Part shown: piece after piece, positions 467-5,698 of the stretch
Position numbering within the stretch: the first letter of the stretch is position 1
How the letters are laid out: every line of letters starts with the position of its first letter
DNA from: Clostridia bacterium
GTDB lineage: Bacteria; Bacillota_A; Clostridia; Oscillospirales; CAG-272
Assembly: GCA_017453335.1 (NCBI GenBank)
Contig: JAFTKI010000113.1
Location: forward strand, 1 to 5,698
Reading direction: 5' to 3'
DNA: 5,698 nt
Translations under genes and position numbers: made by a program
Notes under the pieces: generated by a model
Seen by the model: only the letters and a program-made list of their open reading frames with translations
What the model was told of the DNA's origin: nothing
Database searches by the model: none

Positions 467-1312
467 TTAACTTTCTATTCCGTGATGGCATTTTTGGAGA
501 TTGCTTTTATATGGCTGCTGAGAAATGGATCGCTTCTCCCGGAATTCATTGGGCGTCACGCCGACTACCTCCTTGAATTTACGGTTGAAATTCCGAACGG
601 AGCCAAAGCCGCACGCAAAGGCAATATCCGTAAGCTTTTTGTTTTCATTGCGGATCATGTGCATTGCCTCGTTGACTCTGTAATGATTCACATGATGCGT
701 ATAGGTAATTCCCGTGCATTGCTTGAAATATCGGGATAGGTACATCTCGTGATAGGACGTATGCCTGGAAAGAGCTGTAAGTGAACAATCCTTATCAAAA
801 TTAGATTCGACAAAGGAGAAAATTTGTCTCAACAGTGTTTCGCTATGATGTGCGGTCTGTTCGTATTTTGCCTTTTTTTCAAATTCTGCGCACAGGGAGT
901 AGAGCAGACCTTTTTCCTGTGTATGCGTAAGAGACGCGTTTTCTCCTAACGCGAACAATTGATCAACATAAAACCGATCCGGGAAAAACAAGGCAGAGGT
1001 CGGTAGCTTGCCACCTGTGGTGTTAAAAAATACCTTTACCATTCTTGCGGGAAAAATACAAAGAATATGATGGCTGTACGAATGGGTTTGCAAGGAATGC
1101 ACCTGGTTTGGAAAGATCAGCAGTGCGTTTTGGGGCGTAACGGTATAGATGCTTTTGTCTACGGAAACGGTTAATTCCCCGTCTACTACCGTGATAAATT
1201 CAAAGGAATCGTGAAAATGAAGGGGAAAATTAAAATTTTGTCTGATTTCTATCGTTGCGTGTTCGGCACTTGCGGAGTTTTTTTCTTCATAGAATATCAT
1301 ATATATTGCCAT
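467..1312 (-). CDS. AraC-family transcriptional regulator with N-terminal cupin domain
   Basis: The predicted DNA-binding regulator has 281 residues from the first ATG. The N-terminal part is a cupin-like ligand domain: LHFHDSFEFITVVDGELTV near residues 31-49, then the second strand group ending NALLIFPNQVH (62-72), a fold that binds small sugars in this family. The C-terminal part carries the two helix-turn-helix units of AraC/XylS proteins, at about 177-200 (LTALSRHTSYHEMYLSRYFK) and 227-256. The second unit contains the family signature IAFACGFGSVRNFNRKFKEVVG..P.EFR. There is no signal peptide or membrane segment, so it is cytoplasmic. It is divergent from the xylulokinase operon, which is therefore its most likely target, probably as an activator responding to xylose, arabinose or an oligomer; the ligand is inferred, not visible. 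The start is uncertain: Met5 (codon at 1298-1300) may be the true one. Confidence 0.93.
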   Translation of the reverse strand: MAIYMIFYEEKNSASAEHATIEIRQNFNFPLHFHDSFEFITVVDGELTVSVDKSIYTVTPQNALLIFPNQVHSLQTHSYSHHILCIFPARMVKVFFNTTGGKLPTSALFFPDRFYVDQLFALGENASLTHTQEKGLLYSLCAEFEKKAKYEQTAHHSETLLRQIFSFVESNFDKDCSLTALSRHTSYHEMYLSRYFKQCTGITYTHHVNHYRVNEAMHMIRNENKKLTDIAFACGFGSVRNFNRKFKEVVGVTPNEFREKRSISQQPYKSNLQKCHHGIES

Positions 1313-1542: not shown

Positions 1543-3018
1543 ATGCGATATTATATTGGCATCGACCTCGGCACATCGTCCGTAAAGCTGATGCTTGTGG
1601 ACGGTGACGGTCAGATCCAAAATACCGTTACAAGGGAATATCCTGTCAGCTATCCTCACTCGGGCTGGAGTGAACAGAACGCAGACGATTGGTGGCGTGC
1701 AATTTGCGAGGCACTTCCCGAGCTGCTTTGCGGCTTTGACGGACAGGCGGTAAAGGGAATAGGCGTTGCGGGACAAATGCACGGGCTTGTGGTACTGGAT
1801 CAGGACGACATCTGTATTCGTCCGACTATTCTCTGGAATGATGGACGAACCTACAGGGAAACGGCGTATCTCAACGAGGTCATTGGAAAAGAAACGCTCT
1901 TTGACTGGACGGGCAACATCGCCTTTGCGGGCTTCACCGCGCCCAAGCTCTTGTGGTTTCGGGAAAATGAGCCGGAAAATTTTGCGAGAATCAGCAAGAT
2001 CATGCTCCCTAAGGACTACATAAATTATTTGCTTACGGGAACGCACAGCACCGACTACTCCGACGCAGCGGGTATGCTTTTGCTTGACGTAAAAAACAGG
2101 TGTTGGTCAAAGCAGATGCTGGATATCTGCGGCATACGGGAAGGTCAGATGCCGAAGCTGTACGAGAGCTTTGCGTGCGTCGGCAAGGTTAAAACGGAGA
2201 TTGCCGAGCAATTCGGATTCCATCCCGATACCGTCGTAGTCGCAGGCGCGGGAGATAACGCCGCCGCGGCGATCGGCACGGGGACCGTTGGCGAGGGCAG
2301 GTGTAACATTTCCCTTGGAACGTCGGGTACGGTTTTTGTCTCAAGTCATCATTTTTCGGGTGACGAAAGACAGGCAATACATGCTTTCTGCCACGCCGAC
2401 GGAGGCTATCATCTGATGGGCTGTATCCTCTCGGCGGCGTCCTGTAATAAATGGTTTTGCGATGGGATACTGCATACAAGGGACTATCAGGCGGAGGAGG
2501 CGGCAATCGCTGAGCTTGGAAAAAACGAGGTGTTCTTCCTGCCGTATCTTATGGGGGAAAGAAGCCCTATCAACGATACGAACGCTACGGGACTGTTTCT
2601 TGGGCTTCGTCCGAATACGTCAAGGGCGGATATGTATCAGGCGGTGCTTGAGGGTGTTGCTTTTGCGATAAAGGATAATCTTGAAATAATCAAGCAGTTT
2701 GGCATAGACGTAAAGTCAAGCTGTCTATGCGGCGGCGGAGCAAAATCGAGGGTATGGAGAGAGATCCTTGCGAACGTGCTGGACATTGAGCTACATATCC
2801 CCATGACCGAGCAGGGTCCCGGCTACGGCTCGGCGATGCTGGCTATGGTGGGTGCTGGGCAGTTTGAGAACGTAAAGCAGGCAACCGACAAATTCTTCGA
2901 AATAAAAGAAACGGTAAGCCCCGACAAGACGCTGGTGGCGCTTTACGCGGAACGGTACGAAAAATTCCGCACGATATATCCCGCGGTGAAAGAGCTGTAT
3001 AAAATGATAAAGAAGTAA
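1543..3018 (+). CDS. xylB: Xylulokinase (FGGY-family carbohydrate kinase)
   Basis: This enzyme phosphorylates D-xylulose with ATP to xylulose 5-phosphate in the cytoplasm, feeding the pentose phosphate pathway. It has 491 residues, the usual size for XylB. The N-terminal actin-like domain opens with the phosphate loop YIGIDLGTSSVK (4-15, with Asp8). HSGWSEQNADDWW (39-51) and GIGVAGQMHGLV (72-83, substrate-contacting MH) are typical of xylulokinases rather than glycerol or gluconate kinases. GAGDNAAAAIGTG (235-247) holds the predicted catalytic base Asp238. The C-terminal domain has SLGTSGTVF (257-265) and the nucleotide-binding CGGGAKSRVWREI (396-408). No truncation or missing key residue is seen. 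It is first in the operon; the GH43 gene follows after 17 nt. It is probably controlled by the divergent AraC-type regulator. Confidence 0.96.
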   Translation: MRYYIGIDLGTSSVKLMLVDGDGQIQNTVTREYPVSYPHSGWSEQNADDWWRAICEALPELLCGFDGQAVKGIGVAGQMHGLVVLDQDDICIRPTILWNDGRTYRETAYLNEVIGKETLFDWTGNIAFAGFTAPKLLWFRENEPENFARISKIMLPKDYINYLLTGTHSTDYSDAAGMLLLDVKNRCWSKQMLDICGIREGQMPKLYESFACVGKVKTEIAEQFGFHPDTVVVAGAGDNAAAAIGTGTVGEGRCNISLGTSGTVFVSSHHFSGDERQAIHAFCHADGGYHLMGCILSAASCNKWFCDGILHTRDYQAEEAAIAELGKNEVFFLPYLMGERSPINDTNATGLFLGLRPNTSRADMYQAVLEGVAFAIKDNLEIIKQFGIDVKSSCLCGGGAKSRVWREILANVLDIELHIPMTEQGPGYGSAMLAMVGAGQFENVKQATDKFFEIKETVSPDKTLVALYAERYEKFRTIYPAVKELYKMIKK

Positions 3019-3035: not shown

Positions 3036-3896
3036 ATGAAGGCAAGTGAAATCAACATAAGAGATCCGTTTGTGGTATATGATAACGACACGTATTACCT
3101 TTACGGTACCAGAGCGAAGGACTTCGGATCGTACGTTGGAGGGATGGATGTTTACGTTTCCAACGATTTGGAAAACTGGAGTGAACCCATCGAATGCTTC
3201 AATTCTGAACAATATGGATTGAACCGTAAGGTAAATTGGGCGCCCGAGGTGCATCTATACCGTGATCGGTATTATATGTTTGCGACCTTCACCCGTGAAA
3301 ACGGCAAAAAAGGTACGTATTCTCTTGTTGCCGACAGTCTTTTGGGCCCCTTTGTGCCGAACAGTGCTTCCGCCCTTACCCCGGAGGATTGGCAATGTCT
3401 GGACGGCACCCTTTACGTGGAGGACGGCGTTCCGTATATGATCTTTTGCCACGAGTGGGCGCAGATACGGGACGGGGAGATCTGTTCGGTCCGACTTTCC
3501 GAGGATCTGCGTACAGCGGTGGGCGAGCCTACGGTATTGTTTAAGGCGTCGGACCTGCCGTGCGCGACAGACAACCGTCATAACGGCTTTGTGACGGATG
3601 GCCCTTTCCTTTACAGAACCGCATCAGACCGGCTTGTGATGATATGGTCAAGCTTTGACGATAAAGGGTACATCGAAGCGGTTTCCTTCTCCGAAAACGG
3701 CAGAATCAATGGAACATGGAAGCATTGTGAAAAGCCGCTTTCCAGCCAGAACGGCGGACACGGTATGCTGTTTCAGGATCGGTGTGGCGAGCTTTACTTT
3801 ACCATGCACAGCCCCAACGGACCGATCGGTGCCGAACGAGTAAGGTTGTTTAAAATGCGAGAGATCGAAAAGCAACCGTTTTTTGAATTCGTCTGA
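3036..3896 (+). CDS. Glycoside hydrolase family 43, cytoplasmic (beta-xylosidase/arabinofuranosidase-like)
   Basis: This is a single-domain five-bladed beta-propeller hydrolase of 286 residues. It likely removes xylose or arabinose from short imported oligosaccharides. Blade 1 has INIRDPFVVYDNDTYYLYGT (6-25), with Asp10 as the expected general base. WAPEVH (68-73) and CLDGTLYVEDG (121-131, Asp123 as the expected pKa-modulating Asp) follow. MIFCHEW (135-141) comes before FVTDGPFLYR (185-194), where an Asp (188) occupies the usual Glu-Gly-Pro position of the family's catalytic acid. GGHGML (240-245) supplies the conserved propeller His242. There is no signal peptide, so it acts inside the cell. 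The ribosome site AAAGGAG (3022-3028) is 7 nt from the ATG. Its place between xylB and the xylA remnant fits pentose release for the same pathway. The exact substrate and subfamily cannot be read from sequence alone. Confidence 0.9.
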   Translation: MKASEINIRDPFVVYDNDTYYLYGTRAKDFGSYVGGMDVYVSNDLENWSEPIECFNSEQYGLNRKVNWAPEVHLYRDRYYMFATFTRENGKKGTYSLVADSLLGPFVPNSASALTPEDWQCLDGTLYVEDGVPYMIFCHEWAQIRDGEICSVRLSEDLRTAVGEPTVLFKASDLPCATDNRHNGFVTDGPFLYRTASDRLVMIWSSFDDKGYIEAVSFSENGRINGTWKHCEKPLSSQNGGHGMLFQDRCGELYFTMHSPNGPIGAERVRLFKMREIEKQPFFEFV

Positions 3897-3921
3897 ACGA
3901 TAAAAAATAAGGACAAGGATC

Positions 3922-4139
3922 ATGAGCGAAATTTTTAAGAATATCCCCCAGATTAAGTACGAGGGAAGAAACACAAAAAATCCTCTTGCGTTCCGATACT
4001 ATGACGCGGGATACGGGCAGGCAAGACCACCCTTGCCGAGCTTGCGGACCGCGCCGCGGAAATGGGGACCTGTCCCATCCCTGACAGCGGCAGACAGGAA
4101 TATTTAGAAGGTTGCGTGAATCGGATTCTGTTCGGTTGA
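3922..4139 (+). pseudogene. xylA: Xylose isomerase remnant with large internal deletion and frameshift
   Basis: The 5' part encodes MSEIFKNIPQIKYEGRN... through FRYYDA (29 codons, 3922-4008), the characteristic N-terminus of clostridial xylose isomerases, with a good ribosome site (AAGGA 3909-3913). At about 4003-4013 the reading jumps frame. From 4011, in the frame of 4020, the DNA reads IRAGKTTLAELADRAAEMG, then PDSGRQEYLEGCVNRILFG and TGA at 4137-4139. This matches the family's C-terminus, which typically runs as a ...DG.TSLEEL...SGRQE.LE..VNNILF pattern. About 72 of roughly 440 codons survive. The barrel with its catalytic His, the metal-binding Glu/Asp residues and the substrate Lys is lost. 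The 5' frame ends at TAG 4105-4107 as a meaningless 61-residue product. It was the third gene of the operon, 25 nt after GH43. Recent loss is suggested by the intact ends and ribosome site. Confidence 0.9.
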
Positions 4140-4164: not shown

Positions 4165-4190
4165 AAAAGCACCTCGCAAGAGGTGCTTTT
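4165..4190 (+). terminator. Intrinsic terminator of the xyl operon
   Basis: A perfect 11-bp stem AAAAGCACCTC (4165-4175)/GAGGTGCTTTT (4180-4190) closes on a stable GCAA tetraloop, with the T-run in the right arm. It lies 25 nt after the original stop of xylA, so the ancestral operon end is preserved despite the deletion. Confidence 0.9.
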
Positions 4191-4247: not shown

Positions 4248-4276
4248 TTGACAAGCACAACAATATAGATTATAAT
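4248..4276 (+). promoter_or_regulatory. Consensus promoter of the Y-family polymerase gene
   Basis: A perfect TTGACA (4248-4253) and a perfect TATAAT (4271-4276) are separated by exactly 17 nt. The expected start is near 4283, leaving a leader of about 40 nt with a strong AAGGAGGAGGG ribosome site (4306-4316). I see no GAAC-N4-GTTC-type LexA box over or near it. By sequence it should be strong and constitutive unless an unknown repressor acts. Confidence 0.88.
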
Positions 4277-4323: not shown

Positions 4324-5698
4324 ATGGCAAGCGAGAAAACCTATATCGCGATTGACTTGAAATCCTTTTATGCTTCTGTGGAATGTATCGAGCGCGGTCT
4401 TGATCCGATGACTACCAATCTGCTTGTGGCGGACGTCAGCCGTACCGAGAAAACGATCTGCCTTGCCGTTTCTCCCTCGCTCAAGAGCCACGGAATCGGC
4501 GGACGGGCAAGGCTCTTTGAAGCATTGCAGGTGCTGAAAAGCGCCAACGAAAAGCGGCGGCAGCTCGCCCCGAACAGGCGGTTTACGGGAAAGTCCTGTA
4601 ACGCGGTTGAGCTGAGAGAAAATCCCTCGCTGGAGATCGACTTTATCGCCGCGCCGCCACGTATGGCACATTATATGGAGTACAGCACCCGTATATACAA
4701 GGTGTACCTGAAGCACGTCGCGCCCGAGGACATACACGTGTATTCGATTGACGAGGTGTTCATCGACGCTACCGCCTATCTCAAGGCAAGAGGCATGACG
4801 GGATATGCGTTTGCGCGTATGCTGATCCAGGACGTGTTGACCACAACCGGGATCACCGCGACGGCGGGAATCGGCACAAACCTCTACCTTGCCAAGATCG
4901 CGATGGACATTAAGGCGAAGAAGATGCCCGCGGACGAGGACGGGGTAAGAATCGCCGAGCTTGACGAAATGAGCTATCGCAGAGAGCTGTGGGAGCACCG
5001 ACCTCTTACCGACTTTTGGAGAGTGGGAAAGGGCTACGCCAGATCGCTTGAAGCCAATGGCATGTTCACGATGGGCGACGTGGCGAGATGCTCCGTTGGC
5101 AGTATATATGAGCGGCAGAATGAAGCCCTGCTGTATAAGCTGTTCGGCGTGAATGCGGAATTGCTGATCGACCACGCCTGGGGCTATGAGCCGTGTACGA
5201 TTGCCCAGATAAAGGCATACAAGCCCGAAACCCAAAGCCTGAATTCGGGACAGGTGCTGCATTGTCCCTACGATGCGGAAAAAGCAAAGCTCGTGATACG
5301 GGAAATGGCAGACCTGCTCTCCCTCGACATTGTGGAAAAGGGGCTTGTAACGAATCAGATCGTGCTTACCGTTGGCTACGATATTGAAAATTTGACAAAC
5401 CCCAAAATCAGCAAGCTCTATAAGGGTGATGTGACAACCGACCATTACGGACGAAAGATACCCAAGCACGCGCAGGGAACGGAGAACTTCAAGTACACGT
5501 CCTCGACCAAACGCATCGTGCAAGCGGTGTCCGACCTCTATGATCGGATCGTCAATCCCGACCTCTTAATCCGCAGAATGAATATATCTGTCAATAACTT
5601 GATTGACGAAAGCAAAGTGGAGGACACGGCGGGAGCAACGGAACAGTTGAGCATTTTCGTTGACTACGAAAAACTTGAACAAGAGAGAGCGGAAGAAA
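4324..5698 (+). CDS. Y-family DNA polymerase (DinB/UmuC-like), 3' end beyond the window
   Basis: This is a translesion DNA polymerase; 458 residues are visible and the frame is still open at the right edge. The palm begins YIAIDLKSFYASVE (7-20), with Asp11 as the first metal ligand and Tyr16 at the steric-gate position. The second catalytic motif is VYSIDEVFID (139-148), with Asp143 and Glu144. TATAGIGTNLYLAKIAMDI (178-196) is the conserved palm helix of the family. FWRVGKGYARSLEANGMFTM (231-250) matches the helix-hairpin-helix thumb. The rest is the little finger. QLSIF (441-445) fits the sliding-clamp binding consensus QLxLF. An insertion-like stretch between residues 70 and 110 and the TNLLVADVSRTEKTICLAVSPSLK start are typical of the clostridial UmuC/UvrX-like group, often carried on plasmids and integrative elements. 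No such element genes are visible in this window. Start: ATG 7 nt after GGAGGG. Confidence 0.93.
   Translation, partial: MASEKTYIAIDLKSFYASVECIERGLDPMTTNLLVADVSRTEKTICLAVSPSLKSHGIGGRARLFEALQVLKSANEKRRQLAPNRRFTGKSCNAVELRENPSLEIDFIAAPPRMAHYMEYSTRIYKVYLKHVAPEDIHVYSIDEVFIDATAYLKARGMTGYAFARMLIQDVLTTTGITATAGIGTNLYLAKIAMDIKAKKMPADEDGVRIAELDEMSYRRELWEHRPLTDFWRVGKGYARSLEANGMFTMGDVARCSVGSIYERQNEALLYKLFGVNAELLIDHAWGYEPCTIAQIKAYKPETQSLNSGQVLHCPYDAEKAKLVIREMADLLSLDIVEKGLVTNQIVLTVGYDIENLTNPKISKLYKGDVTTDHYGRKIPKHAQGTENFKYTSSTKRIVQAVSDLYDRIVNPDLLIRRMNISVNNLIDESKVEDTAGATEQLSIFVDYEKLEQERAEE

Follow-up and report, generated by a model that had tools for sequence, protein, structure and literature searches.

A probable recent loss-of-function deletion in the xylose isomerase gene of a clostridial xylB operon

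The window, the whole stretch of 5,698 nt of clostridial DNA analysed here, carries a sugar operon with a xylulokinase gene (xylB), a GH43 glycosidase gene and what is left of a xylose isomerase gene (xylA), of which only the two ends are present, joined in different frames. The question raised by this locus is whether its xylA was broken recently in the cell, is being displaced by an unrelated isomerase, has given rise to a small new protein, or was fused artificially from the ends of an intact gene.

The xylA remnants and their operon

The features of the window are as follows; P0121 is an intact XylA from a public protein collection, described in the next section.

136 to 210: tRNA-Cys
467 to 1312, minus strand: AraC-family regulator, divergent from xylB (Pfam HTH_18 and AraC_binding)
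1543 to 3018, plus strand: xylB, xylulokinase, full length, 491 residues (TIGR01312, 569 bits, cut-off 380)
3036 to 3896, plus strand: GH43 glycosidase, full length, 286 residues, between xylB and xylA (PF04616, 125 bits, cut-off 32)
3911 to 3918, plus strand: ribosome-site-like GGACAAGG upstream of the xylA start, from reading the sequence
3922 to 4009, plus strand: 5' end of xylA, 29 complete codons and then the first base of codon 30, equal to P0121 residues 1-29
3922 to 4107, plus strand: open frame of 61 residues over the junction, 29 native and then 32 out of frame
4009 to 4010, plus strand: deletion junction, 1,099 nt absent relative to P0121, no shared base
4010 to 4139, plus strand: 3' end of xylA in a shifted frame, from the last base of codon 396 through codons 397-438 to the stop, equal to P0121 residues 397-438
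4165 to 4190, plus strand: hairpin 3' of the operon, a likely terminator (11-bp stem, -19.5 kcal/mol, z -4.57)
From 4324, running off the window end: DNA polymerase IV/UmuC-like gene, by family match

Both remnants are recognised by xylose isomerase profiles. In an hmmscan of the 61-residue frame, the N-terminal piece matches NF003998 at residues 2-29 (E 1.3e-6) and TIGR02630 at residues 5-29 (E 1e-5). The C-terminal piece (4011-4136) matches positions 396-434 of the 435 of TIGR02630 (E 3.8e-4) and 398-438 of the 439 of NF003998 (E 5e-4). The two pieces thus occupy the models in the correct order (2-29 and 398-438 in NF003998, 2-26 and 396-434 in TIGR02630), with TIGR02630 scores of 24.6 and 19.5 bits, both below the curated cut-off of 533. 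The reading of the 3' segment as the XylA C-terminus, made initially from the letters alone, is borne out by this family search, in which the last columns of both models are matched. Eight distinct sequences, all xylose isomerases, matched the N-terminal piece in a PDB search, where the C-terminal piece had no match at E 1; neither piece matched in a Pfam search at E 0.1.

The rest of the operon is whole. As the initial annotation had judged, xylB and the GH43 gene are complete and score well above their family cut-offs, and a terminator-like hairpin follows the xylA remnant, although it is absent from the output of a simple consensus terminator scan. There is no further operon gene downstream of the remnant. 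A matching divergent regulator lies beside xylB in the loci of seven relatives (L084, L085, L087, L093, L101, L103 and L120).

Several features of the flanks are recorded in their own right. Relatives of the UmuC-like gene (4324-5697) with 60-71% identity are found in eight phage-labelled records from human faeces (75 records matched), and one IMG/VR contig carries a relative with 68% identity; judged from these matches, the gene may be part of mobile DNA next to the operon. Upstream of it, a sigma-70-type promoter match (4248-4276) agrees at 12 of 12 positions with a spacer of 17; the scan gave 10 weaker or equal sites in all, against 7.0 expected from shuffles. At the other end, a 35-nt terminator-like element occurs in two copies (89% identical) after tRNA-Cys, at 212-246 and 422-456, and a 34-nt inverted repeat (82%) at 184-271 overlaps the 3' end of the tRNA. 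Plasmid matches to the window are confined to the tRNA (8 records). When the window xylB was searched in viral contigs, three stretches fitted the pattern and none was a relative.

An intact counterpart and the junction

The two xylA pieces, joined by X residues, were used as a probe against the public protein collection; of 1,544 candidates, 1,535 proteins matched with an E of at most 10, and 120 are listed. First among the matches listed is P0121, a complete XylA of 438 residues encoded on one contig of 6,740 bases, which passes TIGR02630 with 666 bits (cut-off 533). Both xylA ends of the window are identical to it residue for residue, which rules out a chance resemblance of the 3' piece to XylA. 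A search with the window GH43 returned an identical protein, P0001, found on four contigs, the longest of 6,740 bases. This figure is unique to P0121 among the 120 matches listed and unique to P0001 in the GH43 search, so the two proteins probably lie on one contig. The contig tallies of the two proteins differ (four for P0001, one for P0121), and the other contigs of P0001 may be the window itself, contigs of lesser length, copies whose xylA differs slightly, or additional copies of the deletion.

P0121 has the features of an ordinary XylA. Nine residues taken to be catalytic or metal-binding (His101, Asp104, Glu232, Lys234, Glu268, His271, Asp296, Asp307 and Asp309) are all present in P0121, and all fall within the part missing from the window; at a tenth position, presumably Asp339, P0121 reads Ala and has Asp at 338. 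There are 188 columns with at least 95% conservation among the 120 proteins, and P0121 departs from them twice (positions 289 and 306). Since 58 of the 120 listed XylA proteins, P0121 included, have at least two such departures, a gradual decay of xylA preceding the deletion is unsupported. Compared with the known family (TIGR02630; PDB 1a0e and 4xkm), the window remnants are the two ends of the enzyme and P0121 is its intact counterpart, whereas the window copy is without residues 30-396.

With this counterpart, the reduction of xylA proposed by the initial annotation, to 29 N-terminal codons followed by the last residues (now 42) in another frame, is confirmed, and the deletion it had put at about 1.1 kb and out of frame is exactly 1,099 nt long relative to P0121. 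The junction is refined to 4009/4010. As 1,099 leaves a remainder of 1 when divided by three, the frame shifts at the junction and meets an early stop at 4105-4107. The retained 88 nt (3922-4009) and 130 nt (4010-4139) make up the 218 nt present, and the maximal stretches permitted by the P0121 codons, 88 nt from the left and 130 nt from the right, also sum to exactly 218 nt. There is therefore zero base overlap at the junction, a calculation which presumes that the deleted gene had the residues of P0121 beside the break; the residues concerned, Asp30 and Lys396, are invariant across eight aligned proteins. A repeat scan of the window, which is blind to the missing part, found no direct repeat of which one copy falls at the junction.

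The window xylA is thus probably a loss-of-function allele that arose recently by deletion from a normal xylA. A single illegitimate (non-homologous) deletion, 1,099 nt long, would have fused codon 30 to codon 396 out of frame, taking out the catalytic part of XylA (residues 30-396) and sparing both ends of the gene, its start signals and the end of the operon. Ribosomes initiating at the xylA start would then make a 61-residue peptide with no expected use. The strain would be unable to convert xylose to xylulose through this operon, and xylB and the GH43 gene would be left in a pathway without its first enzyme. The suggestion that the deletion is recent is supported by the existence of an intact protein with identical ends. 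The deletion appears to be real and to have occurred recently in the cell, and its origin is most likely at the strain level, as an ordinary broken copy carried by some strains.

Whether the join arose outside the cell has to be weighed against this reading, as a chimeric read, a PCR or library molecule, or a scaffolding error may have fused the ends of an intact xylA. Such an origin would agree with the public P0121 being intact with identical ends, and with the blunt junction, which a chimeric molecule would also give; short shared sequence at the junction is the more usual finding in real deletions. Furthermore, the junction was not met a second time, although both tests of this are weak: there were no exact matches to it in viral contigs, and the protein collection held no candidate for the 61-residue fusion frame. 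The window's own 61-residue frame is also absent from that collection, which may thus simply omit such short frames. On the other hand, a random chimera would rarely link two sites of one gene that lie 1.1 kb from each other and keep their order and orientation. Collapse of the assembly graph at a repeat does not apply, as the two ends have no sequence in common where they meet. Of the assembly collapse considered in the initial annotation, the repeat-driven form is made unlikely by the zero overlap, and an artefact of any kind is unlikely. Given the intact gene alone, an assembler working by shared words should not create such a join, so the joined molecule was probably present in the reads, either as a chimera or as a true deletion.

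The join also makes a new open frame, and it may be asked whether its 61-residue product is a useful small protein born from the event. Its start codon and ribosome-like site are intact and its 61 codons are open, and deletion-born gene fusions are described in the part of PMC12803068 drawn on here, where, as in the window, a deletion links two distant coding fragments. In the window, however, the join falls within one gene and out of frame, so that 32 of the 61 residues are foreign to the xylA frame, and the fusion frame has no relative in the protein search, a weak test for so short a frame. A useful fusion is highly improbable.

Isomerases of the relatives

The setting of the window was compared with xylB loci of related genomes, where the nearest xylB genes in the searched genomes are 68% identical to that of the window, so that the species of the window is not among them. 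Relatives of the GH43 gene (best 80 of 120) were located on named genome contigs with a top identity of 53%, and a xylB match was found in three of the 80 GH43 loci kept (L013, L024 and L031). The relatives were reached through L024, from a Clostridia bacterium of water buffalo cecum; the genus of G065, with two genomes, one of them with xylB, held no nearer relative. Most relatives with neighbouring genes have a complete xylA directly after xylB, the exceptions in order being L102 and L108, with xylA before xylB, and L092, with a regulator in between. No GH43 match was found in the xylB-xylA loci of the compared relatives, and in the genus of G058 the 13 genomes with xylB have their GH43 relatives, at most 57% identical, on other contigs than xylB. 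By these comparisons, the GH43 gene looks like an addition in the lineage of the window.

Three further loci of the relatives are recorded here. G303 carries xylA in three frame-shifted stretches of normal total length (L143, G303:C25:6000-9500), owing to two offsetting frame shifts or to sequencing errors. In L123 (G310) and L124 (G307), a citrate-synthase-like gene follows xylB and a beta-helix-like protein is divergent, both named by eye from the translations; no xylA match was found in either stretch.

In the genus of G058 (22 genomes), 10 genomes have a full xylA, one (G303) has the frame-shifted xylA and 11 are without xylA; xylB is found in 13 of the 22 at E 1e-180. The fucose isomerase-family domain PF02952 is present in 21 of the 22 genomes, mostly in a protein of about 600 residues. 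There is also a second kind of PF02952 protein, whose open frame is 492-524 residues long; 10 of the 11 genomes that lack xylA have it, against none of the 11 that carry xylA (Fisher p 3e-5), and it is present in all seven genomes of this genus with xylB and no xylA. In G317, which has xylA, a PF02952 match of another kind (38 bits, 451 residues) was left out of the count of the 488-residue protein described below; this weak match to the fucose-isomerase C-terminal domain lies directly after an FGGY sugar kinase gene (L139, G317:C179).

The comparison also covered 300 genomes of the wider family. There, xylB is found in 101 genomes (E 1e-100), a TIGR02630 match in 59 (E 0.001), of which 51 were counted as xylA, and a 488-residue fucose-isomerase-family protein in 58 (E 1e-60). 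The xylA count drops eight weak matches (below 100 bits), among them G210, which is on the second-isomerase list, and keeps three genomes with strong fragments (G027, G030 and G269); the second-isomerase list keeps all 58, including G046 and G066, which have fragment matches only. By these counts, XylA and the 488-residue protein occur together in none of the 300 genomes (Fisher p 8e-6). Among the 101 xylB genomes, 47 have XylA only, 44 the other protein only, none both and 10 neither (Fisher p 3e-19, a value that ignores kinship). The completeness of the 300 genomes is not given, and some absences may be assembly gaps. Of the 44 genomes having both xylB and the second type, 16 have the two genes no more than 1 kb apart.

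The identity of the 488-residue protein was approached through its family. It matches PF02952 with 115.7 bits (cut-off 29.3), its only NCBIfam match is a weak one to sulfoquinovose isomerase (65.9 of 700 bits), and a PDB search gave no match. Its plasmid-borne relatives, where annotated, belong to the L-fucose/L-arabinose isomerase family or are named fucose isomerase. An alpha-L-fucosidase-like gene is found near it in L134, L135, L137 and L138 (family assignment checked for L134 and L137), an argument against a role in xylose use alone. According to the part of PMC2873477 drawn on here, XylA-II of Clostridium acetobutylicum (CAC2610) is a xylose isomerase of the fucose-isomerase family clustered with xylB, and many relatives of the window similarly carry a protein of that family instead of XylA, in some of them close to xylB. 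The 488-residue protein may be this XylA-II, for which it is a candidate by family, xylB neighbourhood and exclusion with xylA. The exclusion is not universal, as the same source has C. beijerinckii and C. phytofermentans with both isomerase types. In the 300 genomes here, in contrast, the two were not met together, and the 488-residue protein is not seen in the window.

These counts bear on the second isomerase elsewhere in the genome that had been put forward for the window. Since no xylA-bearing relative was found with the second type, a strain freshly without xylA most likely has no backup, and such an enzyme in the strain of the window is unlikely; for the same reason, the loss of xylA should cost function. 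Of the switch to a xylulose-yielding substrate, which had also been put forward, the window shows no sign.

They also bear on a more specific reading, in which the lineage is losing XylA because the fucose-isomerase-family protein has been acquired or soon will be. This would be a special case of the real deletion and overlaps the preferred explanation. The division of the 101 xylB genomes between the two types fits it, as does a xylB tree, built from the window and 41 relatives rather than all xylB genomes and not necessarily equal to the species tree. On this tree, the isomerase label needs eight changes (seven to eight in bootstraps), of which well-supported branches force at least three, and the clade adjoining the window is mixed, with five XylA and two of the other type. 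However, the label is more clustered than in shuffles, which need 13.6 changes on average, and the absence of the 488-residue protein from all 51 xylA-bearing genomes means that a standing backup is not expected. The protein is, moreover, a candidate xylose isomerase, by family and neighbourhood. It is distinctly unlikely that the window captures isomerase turnover in progress, with two unrelated types replacing each other repeatedly in this clostridial family without coexisting, and with XylA just lost and xylB kept, before or after the gain of the fucose-isomerase type.

Meaning of the allele

The recent loss-of-function deletion has a natural parallel. In Leuconostoc, as far as the consulted part of PMC5289962 goes, some lineages have a heavily truncated xylA and xylB and others have both genes whole, so that natural lineages of one group likewise differ in having full-length or heavily truncated xylose genes. 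There, both genes are truncated and the isolates are dairy-associated, whereas the window has a whole xylB and a single internal deletion, in an uncultured clostridium. No report of the window's xylA allele was recognised among the papers searched, judged by titles and abstracts.

By itself, the window would be one more strain-level knock-out of a sugar gene. The setting adds weight to it, as its xylB relatives have one or the other of two unrelated isomerase candidates, with both in none of the 101 genomes, and the type has changed several times on the xylB tree. A strain with xylB and a freshly deleted xylA offers a way to ask how such switches cross a xylose-negative stage; a recent knock-out allele is the simplest account of the window, and an intermediate in isomerase replacement is a possible one. 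For the reading of metagenomes, the locus is a caution that an operon with xylB and GH43 is no proof of xylose use.
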